This document shows, in pieces, positions 11,704-20,393 of a DNA stretch of 52,248 nt. Numbering within the stretch: the first letter of the stretch is position 1; every line of letters begins with the position of its first letter. Origin of the DNA: a virus. The notes below the pieces were generated by a model. The model did no database searches. It saw nothing but the letters and a program-made list of their open reading frames with translations, and was not told the origin of the DNA. The stretch is taken from the IMG/VR virus record IMGVR_UViG_3300009420_001906, positions 1 to 52,248 of that record; one strand, written 5' to 3'. The position numbers were made by a program, and so were the translations under genes.

Positions 11704-12735
11704 TTATTTCTTTTTCTTTTTTTGCTTAGAATGATCAGGCCCAGTAGCAACTGATTTCTTTTTCAGTTTACTTTCATCAGCGGTTGCACTAGCACCAATC
11801 GCTGCAAGGTCTGCTAATGAGCCGCCGAATACATAAGTACCAACATGCTGCAATTGCATCCAAGGACATAACCAGACTTGTAGCCCAATTTTCCTTGCCC
11901 ATTGACAGAACATATAATCTTCTGACAAATATCTATTAGAGTATTCTGACTCACCATCACCGCTTCCGGTTTTATCAGTCACGAATTCAATAATCTGTTC
12001 TTTAGTAGGTTCAGGGTTAGCTTTATAAAACTGCTCCATCTCATTACCCATATTGTTATACTTGTCATCAATAAGAGCATCAAAGTACGCCATAATTTCT
12101 CTTGAGCCATCAAATTCAGCTGTACGAACATGATCTGGCTTATACATCAATTGAGGATAAGCATCTCTATATTTCTCTAGAGTCTCTCTTCTTATCATCA
12201 TAAAGCCTGTACCACCTTCCATAACCTCTGCAGGCTCTTGAAGACTAATTTGGTTACCTGATTTAGGTACTGGATTAAATACATAATCACCAACAAACTT
12301 ACTCAGTACTTCAGCATCTTCATCTGCTACACCTTGATCTACGGCTTGCTTAACCTTCTCCCATGAAATACATTTCTTAGGATATGGACCACATAAGATA
12401 TCAAACGGATTGCCGTCATTAACACCTGGGTGACCATCTGACATAGCTAGTAAAGCTAATACATCATTAGCATCAAAGCCAATATCACTATCGATAAACA
12501 TTAAATGACTGCAATCAGATCTCATGAACTCATCTGTACAATAGTTACGTGCTCGAGTCACAAGAGACTCATTAAAGAGATAGTAAAATTTTAGCTCAAT
12601 GTTATGCGCTCTGAACAGCGCTGATAAATCGTTAGTTGACTTGCAAAACATGCCTGCGCATTGTCCACCATACATCGGAGCTGCAATAAACAGTTTCTTC
12701 TTTTGTAAGTCACTTATTTCAACTTTTAATTCCAT
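11704..12735 (-). CDS. Putative GT-A fold glycosyltransferase
   Basis: A 343-residue protein with a nucleotide-sugar transferase pattern. The start is KKLFIAAPMYGGQCAG, then ESLVTRARNYCTDEFM, then the DxD motif FIDSDIGFD (Asp82, Asp84), then GGTGFMMIRRETLEKY and a later SEDYMFCQWARKIG block. This resembles family 2- and 62-like transferases of large marine phages. The C-terminus is a lysine-rich tail (KQKKKKK). The acceptor is unknown: DNA, virion protein or a cell glycan. Its start abuts the stop of the dUTPase-like gene. Confidence 0.6.
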   Translation of the reverse strand: MELKVEISDLQKKKLFIAAPMYGGQCAGMFCKSTNDLSALFRAHNIELKFYYLFNESLVTRARNYCTDEFMRSDCSHLMFIDSDIGFDANDVLALLAMSDGHPGVNDGNPFDILCGPYPKKCISWEKVKQAVDQGVADEDAEVLSKFVGDYVFNPVPKSGNQISLQEPAEVMEGGTGFMMIRRETLEKYRDAYPQLMYKPDHVRTAEFDGSREIMAYFDALIDDKYNNMGNEMEQFYKANPEPTKEQIIEFVTDKTGSGDGESEYSNRYLSEDYMFCQWARKIGLQVWLCPWMQLQHVGTYVFGGSLADLAAIGASATADESKLKKKSVATGPDHSKQKKKKK

Positions 12736-13178
12736 TACGCCTCAACCTTCTGCATTACCAGTTCACCAATATCTTGTCCAGGTTCAATGAATGCTTCTCC
12801 GCCATCTACTCTTAGTACACCTTCAATTAGTCCTTTATAACCAGCGCCAAATAGTGCACTTGATACACTCAATCCAGCTGCTACTAATTTTGAACTTGGT
12901 ACTAACCATGCAACGTGTCCTTTTGGTACTGTAAGATAGGCATCACTTGTAAAGGCATAAGTGCCTGGAAACATATGAGCTATTTCTCTGTTCTTTTCTG
13001 GGTCACCTGGATCAATCATCAACTGAATTTCATAAGTTTCTCTTTCGAGATTTGTTTCATCAGTTATGACAAAGGGATTGCCTTGATAGCCTCTAATTGA
13101 GGCCGCGTTTACTGGCACACTATATCCAGTTCCATCAGTATCTATTCCACTGACATATTGTTTAGGGTTCACTAACAT
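12735..13178 (-). CDS. dUTPase-fold protein (first of a tandem pair)
   Basis: A 147-residue protein with the strand pattern of the trimeric dUTPase/dCTP-deaminase superfamily. VPKGHVAWLVPSSKLVAAG corresponds to the RSS/RSG motif region, and SALFGAGYKGLIEG to the DxGYxG motif with the acidic residue lost. IEPGQDIGELVMQ corresponds to the pGxrIaQ strand. The first 70 residues diverge. Because catalytic Asp and Ser positions look changed, it may be structural or regulatory. It is 3 nt from a second, better conserved copy, which suggests duplication or a hetero-oligomer. Confidence 0.55.
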   Translation of the reverse strand: MLVNPKQYVSGIDTDGTGYSVPVNAASIRGYQGNPFVITDETNLERETYEIQLMIDPGDPEKNREIAHMFPGTYAFTSDAYLTVPKGHVAWLVPSSKLVAAGLSVSSALFGAGYKGLIEGVLRVDGGEAFIEPGQDIGELVMQKVEA

Positions 13179-13181
13179 TTC

Positions 13182-13682
13182 TTACTCCTGTGCTTGATAT
13201 TTTTTATCATGGTCTTTGTTAAGGCCATAATCCCCATCATAGAGATGTAGACTTTCGGCTTTGAATAATAAGAATTGACCGATTCTTGTATTCACTTTCA
13301 CTTTAAATGGTCCTGACGTTACGTGCAACGCACCTGCCATCACTCCATTATACCCTGAGTCATAAAGACCTGAGGTTATATATACACCGTTACGGTTTAA
13401 AGTTGATCTTGTAATAACAAAACCAGCTTCTCCCTCGCCTACAGTAATAATATTCGACATTAATACTTCGTATGTTCCTACATCAAGTTCGAAGTACCCA
13501 TCCTTATTAGGTTGAATTTCAATAGAGCCTCTATGGACCTTCTGATCTTCATCTAATATGAACGGTAGATTTTTAATCATATAAACTTTGTCAAGACGTA
13601 AGTCAACCGCGTTAGGTTGAATGTCTTGTTTTTGTACGTTTGTTAATTGTGATAAGGATTTATCACTGGAGATATGTATCAT
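13182..13682 (-). CDS. dCTP deaminase / dUTPase-like protein (second of the pair)
   Basis: A 166-residue protein that would act on dCTP or dUTP if active. DIQPNAVDLRLDK (20-32) is the typical N-terminal strand of dCTP deaminases. TRSTLNRNGV (91-100) matches the RSxxxRxG substrate loop, YDSGYNGVMAG (107-117) the DxGYxG motif, and NTRIGQFLLF (131-140) the conserved RIxQ strand. The usual Glu after the DxGYxG strand is not evident, so the reaction cannot be assigned. A nucleotide-pool role fits its place between replication genes and the base-modification cluster. Confidence 0.68.
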   Translation of the reverse strand: MIHISSDKSLSQLTNVQKQDIQPNAVDLRLDKVYMIKNLPFILDEDQKVHRGSIEIQPNKDGYFELDVGTYEVLMSNIITVGEGEAGFVITRSTLNRNGVYITSGLYDSGYNGVMAGALHVTSGPFKVKVNTRIGQFLLFKAESLHLYDGDYGLNKDHDKKYQAQE

Positions 13683-13685
13683 AAT

Positions 13686-14312
13686 TTATCCAAAATAGTA
13701 TGGGTTATTTTTGGTTTTAAAGGTGCCTATTTCATCAAGGCTATTCTCTTCAAAATTCACTTTGTACATTGAATTCGGCTTTGTCTGAGACGACCCCTCG
13801 AATTTAGTACTACTTATATTTAGCTTACCATCAATAAACATTGGTGATATCTCATTACGAAAAAGGAATAATTCTCCTTCGCTATATCTTAGACAGCTAA
13901 ATGTGCCGTCTATGGCATCTAGTTGATTACCATCTCTAATCCAATCATGGACGAGACTAGTGTCCCAACTCTTAGAAGAGCTCAAAGCGACTTGTAAGTC
14001 CTTTATGCACTCTTCTTTTATAATACCGTTATGCCATAGTAGGTCTCTACCTCCAGCTCGCATGCTGGGATGGATAGAGTCTATGGCAGAGGCTGCGGTA
14101 GTCGGCGCCTGGATGTGTGCGACGTAATACATCCCAGCACTGAGCTCGATATCTTGCAGGCTGAAGGACCCCAGACATTTTCGCCTCGTGTTCATCGTGC
14201 GTGTCTTCAAATCATATTCACTAATAGAATATGAATGTTGACCTCTATAAGAATTTATTTCAACTAACTCTTCTAGCGTTTGTCGATTAAAGCTTCCTAT
14301 AATTGCACACAT
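13686..14312 (-). CDS. Class-II glutamine amidotransferase domain protein
   Basis: A 208-residue Ntn-type glutaminase that would release ammonia from glutamine. The catalytic Cys2 becomes N-terminal after Met removal (MCAIIGSFNR). SYRGQHS (21-27) and LLWHNGII (91-98, with the oxyanion Asn-Gly) are family marks. The usual HVR motif reads HIQAP, so the Arg that normally holds the glutamine carboxylate is absent. It lies 4 nt after queC. In some archaea and phages a GAT domain is fused to QueC to form the amidine of archaeosine/dG+. Here the two are separate genes in the reverse order to that fusion. Confidence 0.75.
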   Translation of the reverse strand: MCAIIGSFNRQTLEELVEINSYRGQHSYSISEYDLKTRTMNTRRKCLGSFSLQDIELSAGMYYVAHIQAPTTAASAIDSIHPSMRAGGRDLLWHNGIIKEECIKDLQVALSSSKSWDTSLVHDWIRDGNQLDAIDGTFSCLRYSEGELFLFRNEISPMFIDGKLNISSTKFEGSSQTKPNSMYKVNFEENSLDEIGTFKTKNNPYYFG

Positions 14313-14316
14313 ATAT

Positions 14317-15078
14317 TTATACTATTTCCGCTTGTGACTGCGCTGCGCTGAACGCATTATTAAGATAAGGTATCGGGTCAGTGACACCTGCTTTTATAAA
14401 GTTCATCATCCTCTCAGAACAAGTTGGGCATTTACCACAACTGACTCCATCGACAGGATCATAACATGAAATAGTATTAATTAATAGGTGCTCAGATTCC
14501 ATATCTAGTGCTAGAAGAATCTCATCCTTCTTAGATAGCTGACTAAACGGAGCCTCTATTTGAACCTTGAAGGTTCTATTTTGAGATGCTACAGCATTGA
14601 GACTGTCAACAAATTGCTGACTTGTATCCCAATAACCATACTCATCATGGACTTGAAGCCCAGTGAACACGTGACTAGCTCTTCTTACTTCTGCTAGACT
14701 CATAGTTAATGATAACATAATTAGGTTTCTAAATGGAACATATGTAGGTGGTTGAGGATCACCCAGCACGTCTTGGATGGTAGGCATCGCTACCTCCGTA
14801 CCACTAATGTTAGCTGATATAGGAGAAGCGATATCTCCAAGTATGCTTAAGTTAAGTATCTTATGTTTAATTCCTAACTTATTACAAAGTTCAAAAGCTT
14901 TCTCAAGTTCTACTCTTTGCTTCTGACCATAGTCATAGCTTACAGCAGACACTCTCTCCGCACCGTACTTCTTTACCAGTAGCATTGTCATTACTGATGA
15001 GTCAAGCCCACCTGATAACACAGCTAATACGTTCTGACTTGTGTCAGGTAAATTATCTAATGCTTGATTAAGATTCAT
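14317..15078 (-). CDS. queC: QueC, 7-cyano-7-deazaguanine (preQ0) synthase
   Basis: An ATP-dependent enzyme turning 7-carboxy-7-deazaguanine plus ammonia into preQ0. The PP-loop motif SGGLDSS is at residues 22-28, with SYDYGQKQ at 47-54 and FTGLQVHDEYGYWD as the substrate region. The zinc site is Cys205, Cys214, Cys217 and Cys220 in SCYDPVDGVSCGKCPTCSE. The 253-residue length is slightly above the bacterial norm (about 230). It overlaps the upstream 74-residue gene by 11 nt and is followed 4 nt later by the amidotransferase, so ammonia might be supplied directly. Confidence 0.96.
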   Translation of the reverse strand: MNLNQALDNLPDTSQNVLAVLSGGLDSSVMTMLLVKKYGAERVSAVSYDYGQKQRVELEKAFELCNKLGIKHKILNLSILGDIASPISANISGTEVAMPTIQDVLGDPQPPTYVPFRNLIMLSLTMSLAEVRRASHVFTGLQVHDEYGYWDTSQQFVDSLNAVASQNRTFKVQIEAPFSQLSKKDEILLALDMESEHLLINTISCYDPVDGVSCGKCPTCSERMMNFIKAGVTDPIPYLNNAFSAAQSQAEIV

Positions 15079-15292
15079 TGATTGACTTAATCCCTAATAC
15101 ATAATTTTCTGCAGCGTTTTCAGCATATACTTCTGCCTTACCAATATAGATTTCATCTTTTAAAAATGCTCCTGATGGCCCATAGAATCTACATCCATGT
15201 TCTCCATCATTAGTTTTAAAGACTTCAACTCTAGCTCTGCCTTCGGTATGTTCCTGCATGTATTGACTCAGGACGGTTATATCATTTCTCAT
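15068..15292 (-). CDS. Hypothetical protein
   Basis: A 74-residue soluble protein (MRNDITVLSQYMQEHTEGR...) with an alternating strand pattern (ARVEVFKTNDGEHGCRFYG) followed by a helix (AEVYAENAAENYVLG). It shares one nt with the queF stop and overlaps queC by 11 nt, so it is translated within the queuosine-type operon. I do not recognise the family and see no catalytic motif. Confidence 0.65.
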   Translation of the reverse strand: MRNDITVLSQYMQEHTEGRARVEVFKTNDGEHGCRFYGPSGAFLKDEIYIGKAEVYAENAAENYVLGIKSINES

Positions 15293-16224
15293 TATTGCCT
15301 CGCGGTTTTTCTGTGCGGTACGTCTGTATCAACTAAATCCATAGTTATACCGTCTATTAGTTCTTGACTAGTAGCTCTGATAGGATTAATATCAATGCCA
15401 CCTCTTCTTGTATATAGACAAGCTACTAATACTTCAGTATCATCGTCTAATATATCTACTAATCGTTTGTATATACACTCACATATTTCTTCATGAAAGT
15501 GATTCTCTTTTCTCATGCTTATAATATATCTCATAAGTGATTCAGGAGTTACACAATCCATACCTCTAATATGAATATATACATCGCCCCAATCGGGCTG
15601 GTTAGTAATTCTACAATTAGATCTTAGAGCGCTACTCGTGACTTGGAAAGGCATAAAGCCTAACTGAGGAGCATGTTCCAGAATATCTGGATCTTCTTCA
15701 TAGTTACTAAACTTTATATCTTCAATATCGACAAGTGATTCTAGTCTAACAAAATGACCTCTGATTGGAGCTCCAGGTAGTTCATTCTCTTCATCGTAAT
15801 GGAATGTAACGTCTACTTCTGTCTCTAAACAACTCTCAAGGTCGCCTTTAATTCTTTTTTCTAATGCTCTTATACCTGAGGTTAAAGTCTTACCTAATGT
15901 ATCCATATTAAATGAATTCATATACAACTTAAGACTCTTCGACTCAACTATGCATTCACTGTCAGCTGGATAAGCTAATTTAATAACACCACTAACAGGG
16001 AAGCCATTATTTAATAAGAAAGATACTTCATAGCAATTCCATACATCGAAACCAACAAACGGAAGCCTGTTTTCATCTATCTCATATTCTGTTCTATTAA
16101 GTATTCTTGGAACTGGTACAAGCAGGTCAGTCTGGATCTTAGTAGGAGTCACATATGGTTTAACAATGCTCCCGTCACCAGCCTTACCTAAGTGTTTGCT
16201 AACAATTTTATCTAATTCTTTCAT
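15292..16224 (-). CDS. queF: QueF, NADPH-dependent preQ0 reductase
   Basis: Reduces the nitrile of preQ0 to the aminomethyl group of preQ1. The 310-residue bimodular form resembles E. coli QueF (282). The NADPH-binding QueF motif ESKSLKLYMNSF begins at residue 94, which separates it from QueF-like amidinotransferases. Catalytic Cys204 and Asp211 lie in SNCRITNQPDWGD. His244-Glu245 lie in NHFHEEICE. All key residues are present, so the enzyme should be active. A reductase is only needed if the end product is preQ1 or a derivative, not preQ0 or dG+. Confidence 0.95.
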   Translation of the reverse strand: MKELDKIVSKHLGKAGDGSIVKPYVTPTKIQTDLLVPVPRILNRTEYEIDENRLPFVGFDVWNCYEVSFLLNNGFPVSGVIKLAYPADSECIVESKSLKLYMNSFNMDTLGKTLTSGIRALEKRIKGDLESCLETEVDVTFHYDEENELPGAPIRGHFVRLESLVDIEDIKFSNYEEDPDILEHAPQLGFMPFQVTSSALRSNCRITNQPDWGDVYIHIRGMDCVTPESLMRYIISMRKENHFHEEICECIYKRLVDILDDDTEVLVACLYTRRGGIDINPIRATSQELIDGITMDLVDTDVPHRKTARQ

Positions 16225-16751
16225 CTACCTACAACCTTCAGTACTTGAGAGACTCTTTCTCTAACTGACCCTGAAACTGTAATATGTTCTCTAGGCAGCT
16301 CTTTAATAAAGCCTTCAAAGATATCGTTAATGTCATCTCTAAATTGTGGATCAATTGACCTAACGCCATCATCAATGATAGGAAACTCTGGACGTATATA
16401 AAAGATATAATCATAACTGTTAATTAGTTTCTCATATATAGAATAAACCTTTTCCAAAGTTGCTTGAGTTACTTTATTATGCTGATGCATCCATGTAGTA
16501 TATACTAGTCCATCTAATGCAGTACGATCAGTTAACATATCATCATACATGAATACGTTTGAGATATGCTTCTGCATAATTAATATTTGAGTTAAGTCAG
16601 ATCCCTGTTCATTGATATCAAATCCCATTTCTCTAATCTCTCTCGTCACTTCATCACACACTGTATATCCATCAAACCTTGGCTCGGATCTAAGTGCGTT
16701 TAACAAAGTCGTCTTCCCGACTGATTGCGCTCCTGTAATTCCTATTTTCAT
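16221..16751 (-). CDS. P-loop nucleotide kinase-like protein (NadR/AAA_28 type)
   Basis: A 176-residue P-loop protein: GITGAQSVGKTTLL (4-17) is Walker A, CDEVTREIREMGFD follows as in NadR-type kinases, and LTDRTALDGLVYTTW is the substrate-lid region. Phages often carry such kinases near nucleotide or NAD metabolism genes. It overlaps queF and the formyltransferase gene by 4 nt on each side, so it belongs to the 7-deazaguanine operon. A kinase for a deazaguanine intermediate, NMN or a nucleotide is possible; the sequence does not decide. Confidence 0.68.
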   Translation of the reverse strand: MKIGITGAQSVGKTTLLNALRSEPRFDGYTVCDEVTREIREMGFDINEQGSDLTQILIMQKHISNVFMYDDMLTDRTALDGLVYTTWMHQHNKVTQATLEKVYSIYEKLINSYDYIFYIRPEFPIIDDGVRSIDPQFRDDINDIFEGFIKELPREHITVSGSVRERVSQVLKVVGR

Positions 16752-17275
16752 ATATTCCTTTGCTTAATTAACATAGACCATAAATTAACTGCTATGTTTC
16801 TCAGTTCTTCAATTAACGATTCTAATGTATCATGATTCTTTATTTGGTAATCCATGAAGAGTTGAATCTCTCCAGTATCTACTCCAGTATCTACTCGATG
16901 TATAATAACACCAGTTGAGTCTAAACCAAGCTCTAAAGCTTTCTCTTGAGGATGTTTGCCTTTTAGCTCAGGATATTTAATAATATCTCCGGGATGAACA
17001 TTAAACATATTCTTAAGAATTGATTCTTCAGGAATGATTCTATTATATCCATGCAATGTAACAAGCGTGTCAGGTCTCTCTAATTTAATTCCATACAGCT
17101 CTTCATTAATATATTCTGCTGAGGTGAAGTCACCTATACGGTGTCCATTAGTAAGTCTCTTATCAATCTTTGATGCGTCTTTTTGATTTGTAAGTATAAC
17201 GTCAGGCCACATGCCTAACTTCTCACAAACAGATGCTAATTCTGATCCACTATAACTAAAGCAAGCTACCCACAT
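16748..17275 (-). CDS. Formyltransferase, candidate DpdN (preQ1 formylase)
   Basis: A 175-residue formyltransferase of the PurN/Fmt catalytic-domain family, which uses 10-formyl-THF. HGYNRIIPEESI is followed by FNVHPGDIIKYPELKGKHP, containing Asn92 and His94, and by HRVDTGVDTGEI with Asp133. These form the Asn-His-Asp set of PurN. The anticodon/tRNA C-terminal domain of Fmt is absent, and so are other purine genes. It overlaps dpdA by 10 nt and lies one gene from queF. A dPreQ1 formyltransferase (DpdN) has been proposed for phages with 7-formylaminomethyl-7-deazaguanine, and this gene fits that role by context. Confidence 0.8.
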   Translation of the reverse strand: MWVACFSYSGSELASVCEKLGMWPDVILTNQKDASKIDKRLTNGHRIGDFTSAEYINEELYGIKLERPDTLVTLHGYNRIIPEESILKNMFNVHPGDIIKYPELKGKHPQEKALELGLDSTGVIIHRVDTGVDTGEIQLFMDYQIKNHDTLESLIEELRNIAVNLWSMLIKQRNI

Positions 17276-18066
17276 ACATTATCCTTAAACTTATGTATAT
17301 TATATACTATATCAGCTTCATTGTCAACTTTTTCTTCCATAAGCTCAAACAATTTTACTGACTCTTTATTTGCTAATCCAAATATACCATTAGCATCTAA
17401 ATCAGAATACTTAATACCTTTCATGCCATGCACTACTGGGTTGGATGTATCTAATGTATCTAGAAAAGGAAATCCTTCTCTATAGTATGCAAACTCTTGA
17501 GGAAGGCTGCAGCCTAATAAGTGATGTGGCTTCTTAGTATTAATAATCTGCTCATCTCTCATCTGTGTTATTAGTTGTTGTCTACCTTTCATCCAAGCAT
17601 GATACTTAGTTGGCTCATTAGGGAATTGTTTTTCATAGTAGCTATAATCAAAACTAATAGCAATAATATCAGCGCGCTTCTGCATATACTGATAGCATTC
17701 TATTATCTCATTATAATCTCTACCTTGAACAACACCAATTTTGAGCCCTGGTAAGGCACTATATCGTTCCAACCACGAACTAAAGTTCTCAATAGTTGTA
17801 GCTTTCTGTTCTAGTGCGTCGGGCACGATATAAGCAGAAGGAGTAAGCTTTGTTATCCACTCCGCATACTTAACCGCATCAAATGCCTCACCAAGTTCAA
17901 AAATCGAATTGTCTAAAATGACATAACGTCCTTTATCGACAGCTTGTTTAAAATAATCAAAGTAGTCAGGAAGCTCTTCAAATAGATGCACAAGAGCATA
18001 ATCATAGTCAGTCATTACTCCGACCTTGCGAATGATATTTAATGGTGCTTCGTGACTAATTCTCAT
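17266..18066 (-). CDS. dpdA: DpdA-like DNA guanine transglycosylase (TGT superfamily)
   Basis: Would swap guanine in DNA for a 7-deazaguanine. The 266-residue protein keeps the order of TGT motifs. GRYVILDNSIFELGE (46-60) carries Asp52, in the place of the DSGGFQ Asp. AYIVPDALEQKATT (78-91) follows, then LKIGVVQGRDYNEI (108-121), matching GIVQGG. FLDTLDTSNPVVHG (201-214) has Asp203/Asp206 in the place of the nucleophilic Asp. The zinc site of tRNA TGT is absent, as in phage DpdA proteins. queF, queC, queD, queE and folE are all close by. A promoter lies in its 3' end. Confidence 0.82.
   Translation of the reverse strand: MRISHEAPLNIIRKVGVMTDYDYALVHLFEELPDYFDYFKQAVDKGRYVILDNSIFELGEAFDAVKYAEWITKLTPSAYIVPDALEQKATTIENFSSWLERYSALPGLKIGVVQGRDYNEIIECYQYMQKRADIIAISFDYSYYEKQFPNEPTKYHAWMKGRQQLITQMRDEQIINTKKPHHLLGCSLPQEFAYYREGFPFLDTLDTSNPVVHGMKGIKYSDLDANGIFGLANKESVKLFELMEEKVDNEADIVYNIHKFKDNVCG
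17299..17327 (-). promoter_or_regulatory. Sigma70 consensus promoter inside the dpdA 3' end
   Basis: TTGACA (17327-17322), a 17-nt spacer and TATAAT (17304-17299): a perfect consensus on the minus strand, entirely within the dpdA coding end. It would drive the formyltransferase gene starting at 17275 and the genes after it independently of folE-queD-dpdA transcripts. Confidence 0.75.
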
Positions 18067-18308: not shown

Positions 18309-19136
18309 TTATTTTCCTCCAGCGAATTGTTGCTGTAATGCAATATCGTCAAAAAATTCTTTCTTTACATCCGCCTCATTAAATCTACCTTTTAGTACAG
18401 TAGTCTGAGTAAGAGATGAATGCGCCATAATGCCTCTATTCTCACAGCAACCATGAGTCGCGTGAATATATACAGCAATATCTTCTGTGCCTGTTGCGTC
18501 TTGTAATTCTTTTACAATAGCGTTAGTCAGTTCTTCTTGCAAAGTACCTCTACGAGCAACCCATTGAGCAATTCGTGTATACTTTGATAATCCAATAACC
18601 TTTCCATTAGGAATGATACCAATATAAGCAGTGCCAACTACTGGTTGGTGATGATGAGAGCAGACAGATTTTAATTCTGATCTTACTACTAACATCCCTG
18701 TATAAGCATCTTCACCTACATTAGGAAATGCTGTCGCGACTGGTCTTTCATCATATCTACCAGCAAGGAGCTCGTTGATATACATTTTAGCTAGACGCTT
18801 TGGCGTTCCTTTAGCATTAGGATCGTTCTTCCAATCAATAAGGAGTCTATGTAAAACCTCTTCAAAGGCTTCAGCCACCTCATCTATTAGATTTAGTTTA
18901 CCAGACGCAGTTAATACTCCTGCTATATTATCATTAGAGAAAGCTCTTAAGCCTTCCTTTTTAATAACATTCCAGTAGAGTTCATGAACTTTATTTTTAT
19001 TCGGCATGTCTATATTATAGTCGCTTTTAGGTGGAATGGCAACAGCTTTTCTTTTTAATATTGATTCATTGCGATCATCTTCGAATGAAGAAAATGCTCC
19101 TTCCTTATTAGTCTGATACTCTATTTCATCAATCAT
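18309..19136 (-). CDS. folE: FolE, GTP cyclohydrolase I
   Basis: Converts GTP to 7,8-dihydroneopterin triphosphate, the first step to preQ0. The 275-residue protein has the zinc site SVCSHHHQP (Cys159, His162) and HGCCENRG with Cys230, plus the family block IGLSKYTRIAQWVARR. An N-terminal extension of about 50 residues is not part of the catalytic domain. Start at 19136 is supported by AGGAGA upstream and by the ATGA overlap with queD. It provides the entry enzyme of the pathway, so the phage does not depend on host folE levels. Confidence 0.96.
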   Translation of the reverse strand: MIDEIEYQTNKEGAFSSFEDDRNESILKRKAVAIPPKSDYNIDMPNKNKVHELYWNVIKKEGLRAFSNDNIAGVLTASGKLNLIDEVAEAFEEVLHRLLIDWKNDPNAKGTPKRLAKMYINELLAGRYDERPVATAFPNVGEDAYTGMLVVRSELKSVCSHHHQPVVGTAYIGIIPNGKVIGLSKYTRIAQWVARRGTLQEELTNAIVKELQDATGTEDIAVYIHATHGCCENRGIMAHSSLTQTTVLKGRFNEADVKKEFFDDIALQQQFAGGK

Positions 19137-19588
19137 TTAACTCTCCTACAAGTTGCTGAATTATGTTCGTGCTCTCGTACCGTTACTTGCTCAACCCAGC
19201 ATCTATTACCGTATTGATCGTTAATAATATCTTGAGCCATATCGAATACCATTTGAGAAAATCTCTCACATCCTACTGCTTCAACTACTCTTATGTCTAT
19301 AAGACCATCTTTATAGAGTTGAGTGAACGTCTCTAAGTGAGGGTCATCTGCTGCAACTAAGCACGTATGATCAAACATAGTCTTAAGCCATGTTTTTAAA
19401 GCTTTAAGGCCACCGAAGTCAACTACCCAGTTGCGTTCATCTAATCCATCACTACCAAATTGTAGTTCAAATTGCAGAGCGTAACCATGTATTAATTTGC
19501 AATGACTATCTGCTCTCCATTGTCTAAACGCACAGCTATGTCCTGTGCTATGGGAATAAGTCTTCCCTGATAAAAATTCTACTGCCAT
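19133..19588 (-). CDS. queD: QueD, 6-carboxy-5,6,7,8-tetrahydropterin synthase
   Basis: Second step to preQ0. A 151-residue PTPS-family protein. STGHSCAFRQW holds the first zinc His (His17), ADSHCKLIHGYAL (26-38) the catalytic Cys30 and His34, and VVDFGGLKALKTWL is the family strand-helix. VREHEHNSATC carries the C-terminal His and Glu. The usual HGH zinc motif reads HGY, so one zinc ligand appears replaced by Tyr36. The gene is linked to folE by a 4-nt overlap. Confidence 0.92.
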   Translation of the reverse strand: MAVEFLSGKTYSHSTGHSCAFRQWRADSHCKLIHGYALQFELQFGSDGLDERNWVVDFGGLKALKTWLKTMFDHTCLVAADDPHLETFTQLYKDGLIDIRVVEAVGCERFSQMVFDMAQDIINDQYGNRCWVEQVTVREHEHNSATCRRVK

Positions 19589-19597
19589 ATTATTCTC

Positions 19598-19945
19598 CTA
19601 TATTGCGCTGACGATCAGAGCTAATGTTAAAAAATGTGCAAACTGATCCGTACCATGCAGCATCCAAAATCCTTGACTATCAGGATCTAAACTATATTTG
19701 TAATCGATCTGAGCTTTAGCCCAGTCGATATGATAATGAACCAATCCATTACCAATTGCTAGAAAGATTGCAAACCAGCTATTAACAAAAAATGTCAATA
19801 CAATAAATGTAAACGCTGCATGTATTCCAGAATGAAATACAGCTGTGTTTAAACCATACTCTCTCTTGTCTCGTATCATATCAGAGTCTTGCAGAAAGTA
19901 ATCAGCTAGCGTATGCCCTGTCATTAAAAGTATTAGTTCAATCAT
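19598..19945 (-). CDS. DUF3307 membrane protein
   Basis: A 115-residue integral membrane protein with three to four hydrophobic helices. The start MIELILLMTGHTLADYFLQ matches the DUF3307 pattern with conserved His and Asp. WMLHGTDQFAHFLTLALI is near the end. The frame opens at 19981, but GGGAGA just upstream of 19945 fixes the start there. It overlaps the phosphoribosyltransferase by 8 nt. DUF3307 has no established function. Its place between prt and queD is likely operon sharing rather than pathway membership. Confidence 0.8.
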   Translation of the reverse strand: MIELILLMTGHTLADYFLQDSDMIRDKREYGLNTAVFHSGIHAAFTFIVLTFFVNSWFAIFLAIGNGLVHYHIDWAKAQIDYKYSLDPDSQGFWMLHGTDQFAHFLTLALIVSAI

Positions 19946-20393
19946 GTTTTGTCTCCCACCAGAAGTCAACCCAACTGTCATCAGTTGACCTTTCTATTGT
20001 CTTGTGCCAGAAGTCTGGCTGAATATCTTGATCGATATTATAGTAACAGCAAGCTATACTGAGATTTTCTTTTGGAAAAACCCCCCAGGTTTCTAATAGA
20101 GAATTAATTGTAAGACCTGAGTCTATAATATCATCTACTAGTAAAATCTTTTGACCGTCCCGCATATCATCTGCAGGGATATCATTATATTCTTTCTGCG
20201 CGAAGTCTCTATGAGACCATGTAATGCATTCTAATGGCATGCCTAGTTCGTATGATAGTCTAACAGCAAGTGGAAGTCCACCTCTCGCTAATCCTACTAC
20301 TCTATCATATGTTGTTCCAACAGCTCTAATATTATTTAAAATATAGTCGACGCCATCTTCAAACTCTTTATAGTTATATTTTATTTTCTTCAT
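19938..20393 (-). CDS. Phosphoribosyltransferase (HGPRT/xanthine-type)
   Basis: A 151-residue type I PRTase that joins a base to PRPP. VVGLARGGLPLAVRLSYEL is the PPi-loop region, and ILLVDDIIDSGLTINSLL (83-100) is the PRPP-binding loop with the Asp-Asp pair. C-terminal WVDFWWETKHD resembles bacterial xanthine/guanine PRTases. It overlaps the oxygenase gene by 20 nt. It could salvage purines, or recycle guanine released by DpdA during base exchange. Confidence 0.85.
   Translation of the reverse strand: MKKIKYNYKEFEDGVDYILNNIRAVGTTYDRVVGLARGGLPLAVRLSYELGMPLECITWSHRDFAQKEYNDIPADDMRDGQKILLVDDIIDSGLTINSLLETWGVFPKENLSIACCYYNIDQDIQPDFWHKTIERSTDDSWVDFWWETKHD

Follow-up and report, generated by a model that had tools for sequence, protein, structure and literature searches.

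DpdN is reported to have been proposed by Cui and coworkers in 2023 (NAR 51:9214, cited in PMC12783734) as a dPreQ1 formyltransferase, in work that is also said to describe its product, fdPreQ1. Flavobacterium phage immuto, in which dpdA and queF are annotated, is presumably a likely candidate for an fdPreQ1 carrier. A further DNA modification, dADG, has been reported for Campylobacter phages. Streptococcus phage Dp-1 makes dPreQ1 by way of QueF and DpdA (PMC6884629), as does Vibrio phage 6E351A, whose DNA contains it at 15% of dG (PMC12028318). The genome record MW824377 (phage 6E35.1a) is taken here to be that of the latter phage.

We have analyzed an IMG/VR virus record of 52,248 bases (hereafter, the window), in which a formyltransferase gene (FT) lies among genes for 7-deazaguanine DNA modification. 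The phage is a marine, T4-like one; the window includes T4-like genes, and the nearest homologues of its terminase, at ~55–57% identity, are those of cyanophages. A megablast search of the operon against phages gave no match.

Results

The formyltransferase gene lies within a predicted complete preQ1-DNA operon

The window FT is read on the minus strand from 17275 to 16748, starts with ATG, encodes 175 aa and is preceded by a Shine-Dalgarno-like motif, TAAGGA. It shares 10 nt at its start with the end of dpdA (17266) and 4 nt at its stop with the following gene (start 16751); because FT overlaps both of its neighbors, the genes form a tightly packed series that we read as one operon. A single gene, encoding a P-loop AAA_28 protein, separates FT from queF. 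The 10-nt overlap with dpdA, the distance of one gene from queF, and the presence in one operon of all of the enzymes upstream of the proposed reaction (FolE, QueD, QueE, QueC, QueF and DpdA) had been asserted in an earlier note made by reading this DNA, and all were confirmed. The features are as follows.

13686–14312, minus strand: stand-alone class-II glutamine-amidotransferase-like (Gat-like) protein, phrog_12378, starting Met-Cys, as assigned from reading of the sequence
14317–15078, minus strand: QueC, preQ0 synthase (Pfam/NCBIfam)
15292–16224, minus strand: QueF, nitrile reductase of the bimodular type (preQ0 to preQ1); NADPH motif ESKSxKLY, Cys204, Asp211 and H244-E245
16221–16751, minus strand: AAA_28 P-loop protein, kinase-like (phrog_2107, "thymidylate kinase")
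16748–17275, minus strand: FT, DpdN candidate with the PurN fold, 175 aa; catalytic N92, H94, H126 and D133; clade signature W2, E12 and Q110
17266–18066, minus strand: DpdA, DNA guanine transglycosylase, 266 aa, with invariant D52 and D206
18309–19136, minus strand: FolE, GTP cyclohydrolase I (Pfam/NCBIfam)
19133–19588, minus strand: QueD, PTPS family (Pfam/NCBIfam)
19938–20393, minus strand: phosphoribosyltransferase, PF00156
20900–21814, minus strand: QueE, phage-type radical SAM protein, with conserved Cys 34, 38 and 85

The window DpdA falls in one subfamily with the annotated DpdA of immuto, with which it shares 53% identity, and with that of Campylobacter phage CP220 (41%). QueE belongs to a divergent type found in phages and has its three Cys residues conserved; it shares 42% identity with the QueE of Vibrio phage nt-1. 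QueF aligns with E. coli QueF over its length and retains the NADPH motif as well as Cys204 and Asp211. Because this motif and the catalytic Cys and Asp are kept, the predicted product is preQ1 rather than G+, and the same nitrile-reductase motif check led us to reject a QueF-L enzyme making G+.

Other genes of the region deserve brief mention. The Gat-like protein, which has no Pfam match, likely supplies ammonia to QueC; a stand-alone Gat-like gene also adjoins queC in Vibrio giant T4-like phages and in Pseudomonas phage pf16. The phosphoribosyltransferase of the operon recurs in many relatives and might salvage the guanine released by DpdA. Two adjacent dCTP-deaminase/dUTPase-like genes, ~27% identical to each other, are present at 12735–13682 on the minus strand.

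FT retains the catalytic residues of PurN and has lost its GAR site

The earlier note described FT as a catalytic formyltransferase domain with the Asn-His-Asp set and nothing else, and this description holds: Formyl_trans_N (PF00551; E 5e-14, 52.9 bits against a cut-off of 26.1) is its sole domain and contains Asn92, His94 and Asp133. The NCBIfam PurN model gives 47.1 of the 150.1 bits required, below its equivalog cut-off, and the models for Fmt (33 of 201.5 bits), ArnA (25 of 777) and two weaker matches all fall far under theirs. The AlphaFold model of FT (pLDDT 94.6, pTM 0.89) is best matched in the PDB by GAR transformylases, with a TM-score of up to 0.83 for 4s1n.

Among 42 representatives of the FT family, N92-x-H94 and D133 (window numbering) are invariant, and alignment with E. 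coli PurN shows N106, H108, H137 and D144 of that enzyme to be kept in all 42. Conversely, PurN N13, which lies in the GAR phosphate loop, is replaced by Glu in 42 of 42 (Glu12 in the window), H121 is likewise Gln in every representative, and E173, a contact to the GAR ribose, is kept in none, its place being taken by S, A, Q or G; R64 is absent from the window FT. Retention of the catalytic residues together with changes in the GAR-site residues indicates that the transfer chemistry has been retained and the acceptor site altered. Based on its position in the alignment, Glu12 may read the guanine edge of preQ1. The window FT is acidic (net charge −7) and is without a DNA-binding domain.

FT belongs to a separate clade that is widespread in phages and rare in cells

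A maximum-likelihood tree was built from 60 proteins (42 FT representatives and references that included 8 PurN, 5 Fmt, 4 sugar formyltransferases and PurU). A branch supported by 100/99 separated the 42 representatives, including the immuto FT, from PurN, Fmt, ArnA, QdtF, other sugar-formyltransferase-like proteins and PurU, in a sampling that contains few sugar formyltransferases and in which QdtF and PurU have long branches. The phylogenetic check suggested in the earlier note therefore sets FT outside the sugar-amine formyltransferases, PurN and Fmt. Cyanophages also carry PurN genes, and these group with PurN, not with the FT clade. The FT profile draws a similar boundary, as family members score 128–183 bits and other formyltransferases of the same bacterial genomes score 54 or less.

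An IMG/VR profile scan yielded 424 tblastn-confirmed relatives, a number that rules out a chance open reading frame; the best 80 loci of the 424 were kept. The family is rare in cells, with 3 loci in a GTDB scan and an occurrence in 1 of 146 cyanobacterial genomes. Two of the 3 GTDB loci adjoin DpdA and so are probably viral contigs. In Microcoleus, a homologue of the same clade resides in a chromosomal cluster (L181:2695–6534) with genes for a radical SAM protein, a deoxynucleoside-kinase-like protein, a DegT aminotransferase and a PRTase, and with no DpdA, which means that the link between the clade and DNA is not a strict one and that its members can serve outside DpdA systems; this cluster perhaps makes a formylated-amine small molecule. 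Matches labeled as Listeria and Enterococcus "phage" proved to be unannotated contigs, two of which were tested and group with PurN, and were set aside. Two FT proteins (L142:2328–3239 and L168:8916–9824) have an extra C-terminal domain of ~120 aa with no Pfam match; the idea that they are fusions of FT to a Pfam nucleotide-modification domain is unsupported.

FT usually lies between DpdA and QueF and appears to depend on QueF

Among the best 80 of the 424 IMG/VR loci, all selected by their FT, DpdA was present at 61 of the 63 with enough flanking sequence to judge it and QueF at 63 of 65. No more than 300 nt separate the end of DpdA from the FT open reading frame in 70 of 74 loci. In most IMG/VR relatives, as in immuto (gene order DpdA, small ORF, FT, P-loop kinase, QueF), FT stands between DpdA and QueF. 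Exceptions are few: L044 has no DpdA within 6 kb upstream, with QueF, QueC and Gat nearby; L046 has neither DpdA nor QueF nearby, and the whole of its 26.7-kb fragment is without QueF; and in L083 QueF is located elsewhere in the record. One operon (L014:4312–5992) contains two adjacent DpdA-like genes followed by FT and QueF. The AAA_28 gene was found at 98 of 128 FT-plus and 57 of 58 FT-minus DpdA loci and adjoins DpdA even in CP220, which is without QueF; it is a general partner of this type of DpdA whether or not FT is present.

Scans with DpdA and QueF provided 186 distinct callable DpdA loci, of which 126 carried both FT and QueF, 52 QueF without FT, 6 neither, and 2 FT without QueF. For one of the latter pair, QueF was located in another part of the record, giving corrected counts of 127 and 1; at L182, which has FT and DpdA, QueF was not found on the partial contig or in its bin. 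The association (Fisher p ~0.004–0.012) is only indicative, as the loci are related and were selected with FT, DpdA and QueF queries. FT thus appears to need QueF, and QueF does not need FT, as would fit an enzyme that uses the amine made by QueF.

The presence of FT varies among close relatives. In two FT-minus loci (L007 and L008), QueF is 78% identical to that of the window, and an unrelated short open reading frame replaces FT. The window DpdA is closer to that of an FT-plus locus (L005), whereas its QueF is closer to that of FT-minus L007. Approximately 5 changes of FT state are needed on the tree of DpdA and 6 on that of QueF, numbers that do not support the transfer of DpdA and FT as a single module.

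Discussion

The window FT is, with high probability, a DpdN-type N-formyltransferase that uses 10-formyl-tetrahydrofolate and is predicted from its sequence and context to formylate the 7-aminomethyl group of (d)PreQ1 and thereby give fdPreQ1. In the proposed pathway, preQ0 would be made by FolE, QueD, QueE and QueC and reduced by QueF to preQ1, the exocyclic 7-aminomethyl group of which is a primary amine, and DpdA would exchange guanine in DNA for preQ1. FT would then formylate this amine, most likely after insertion (i.e., on dPreQ1 in DNA), to give 2′-deoxy-7-(formylamino)methyl-7-deazaguanosine (fdPreQ1), which may have a role against restriction. A PurN-type transfer involving His94, Asp133 and Asn92 is envisioned, with the GAR phosphate and ribose site of PurN rebuilt for a different substrate by the replacement of Asn13 with Glu12 and other changes. 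The assignment of FT as a dPreQ1 formyltransferase, which the earlier note had advanced, gains support at the sequence level from the separate clade, the gene context, the co-occurrence with QueF, the loss of the GAR site and the existence of a dPreQ1 phage without FT.

The same chemistry could take place on the free base, with preQ1 formylated first and 7-formylaminomethyl-7-deazaguanine then inserted by DpdA, a variant of our explanation to which we assign a minor though appreciable likelihood. The small, acidic, single-domain nature of FT, the overlap and adjacency of its gene with dpdA, and the action of PurN-like enzymes on small substrates favor this order of events. On the other hand, the name DpdN reportedly assumes action on dPreQ1, and the approximately 5 changes of FT state on the DpdA tree occurred with no obvious new DpdA clade, so that DpdA would have to accept both bases.

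Diversion of the pathway toward dG+, or a mixture, would require that the Gat-like protein convert preQ0 to archaeosine and that FT act on another amine, which we regard as improbable. The stand-alone class-II Gat-like gene does adjoin queC, and fusions of Gat to QueC make dG+ in phage 9g (PMC6884629). Nevertheless, the QueF-QueC-Gat order of the window recurs in 6E35.1a, a phage with dPreQ1 in its DNA, so a Gat-like neighbor alone does not divert the pathway, and this phage makes the branch to dG+ unlikely. Furthermore, Gat is missing from 29 FT-plus loci that have QueC, and in immuto, which has FT and QueF, the QueC is a different one encoded elsewhere and Gat is not present close to QueF.

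We are similarly skeptical that FT formylates the amine of a sugar nucleotide or modified pyrimidine and is in this operon by coincidence. The DegT aminotransferase gene beside the Microcoleus homologue is consistent with such a substrate, as are, in the window, a gene resembling 2OG oxygenases and a weak match to glycosyltransferases, but the DpdA-FT-QueF position is conserved across many diverse loci, and the one-way dependence of FT on QueF argues against coincidence. Least credible of all is an auxiliary GAR transformylase that boosts purine synthesis, since, although PurN gives the best match in Pfam, NCBIfam, the PDB and fold comparison, the immuto homologue is annotated PurN and cyanophages have PurN genes, FT falls short of the NCBI threshold (47 of 150 bits), forms a clade apart from the PurN group into which cyanophage PurN falls, lacks the GAR phosphate and ribose residues and is linked to QueF and DpdA, not to purine genes.

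The preferred reading, formylation of the QueF-derived amine, offers a concrete predicted product, fdPreQ1, for a widespread phage group. FT-plus and FT-minus relatives provide a way to ask how the formyl group benefits the phage, e.g. through restriction escape or neutralization of the amine charge, and the residue signature tells the FT clade from PurN, the name under which members are annotated. A broader scenario, which we put forward tentatively as a doubtful extension, is that of a large PurN-fold branch specific to phages, in which an invariant Glu in place of the phosphate-binding Asn would read the guanine-like edge of preQ1. The base would be formylated, possibly while free, ahead of insertion by a DpdA able to use either form, and the last step would be switchable between dPreQ1 and fdPreQ1, gained or lost among near relatives.

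Comparison with known systems

With PurN, the window FT has in common the fold and Asn-His-Asp catalysis; it differs in its lost GAR site, shorter length, separate clade and lack of a purine operon. CP220 has a DpdA of the same subfamily as that of the window and an AAA_28 gene beside it, and its complete genome contains neither QueF nor FT. The dPreQ1 pathway of Dp-1 and 6E35.1a has FolE, QueD, QueC, QueF and DpdA in common with the window, as well as Gat in 6E35.1a. The DpdA of 6E35.1a is longer (459 aa), that of the window has no BLAST match to it, and no FT of this clade occurs anywhere in the 6E35.1a genome. Immuto, from which the T4-like window phage is distant, has the same gene order and an FT that is 43% identical to the window FT, annotated as PurN. 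DpdN, as it is reported, resembles the window FT in having the fold of a formyltransferase, in its genomic association with DpdA and the making of preQ1, and in its predicted product. DpdN and fdPreQ1 were already known; what is new is how large the clade is, together with its Glu signature and the natural FT-plus/FT-minus pairs.
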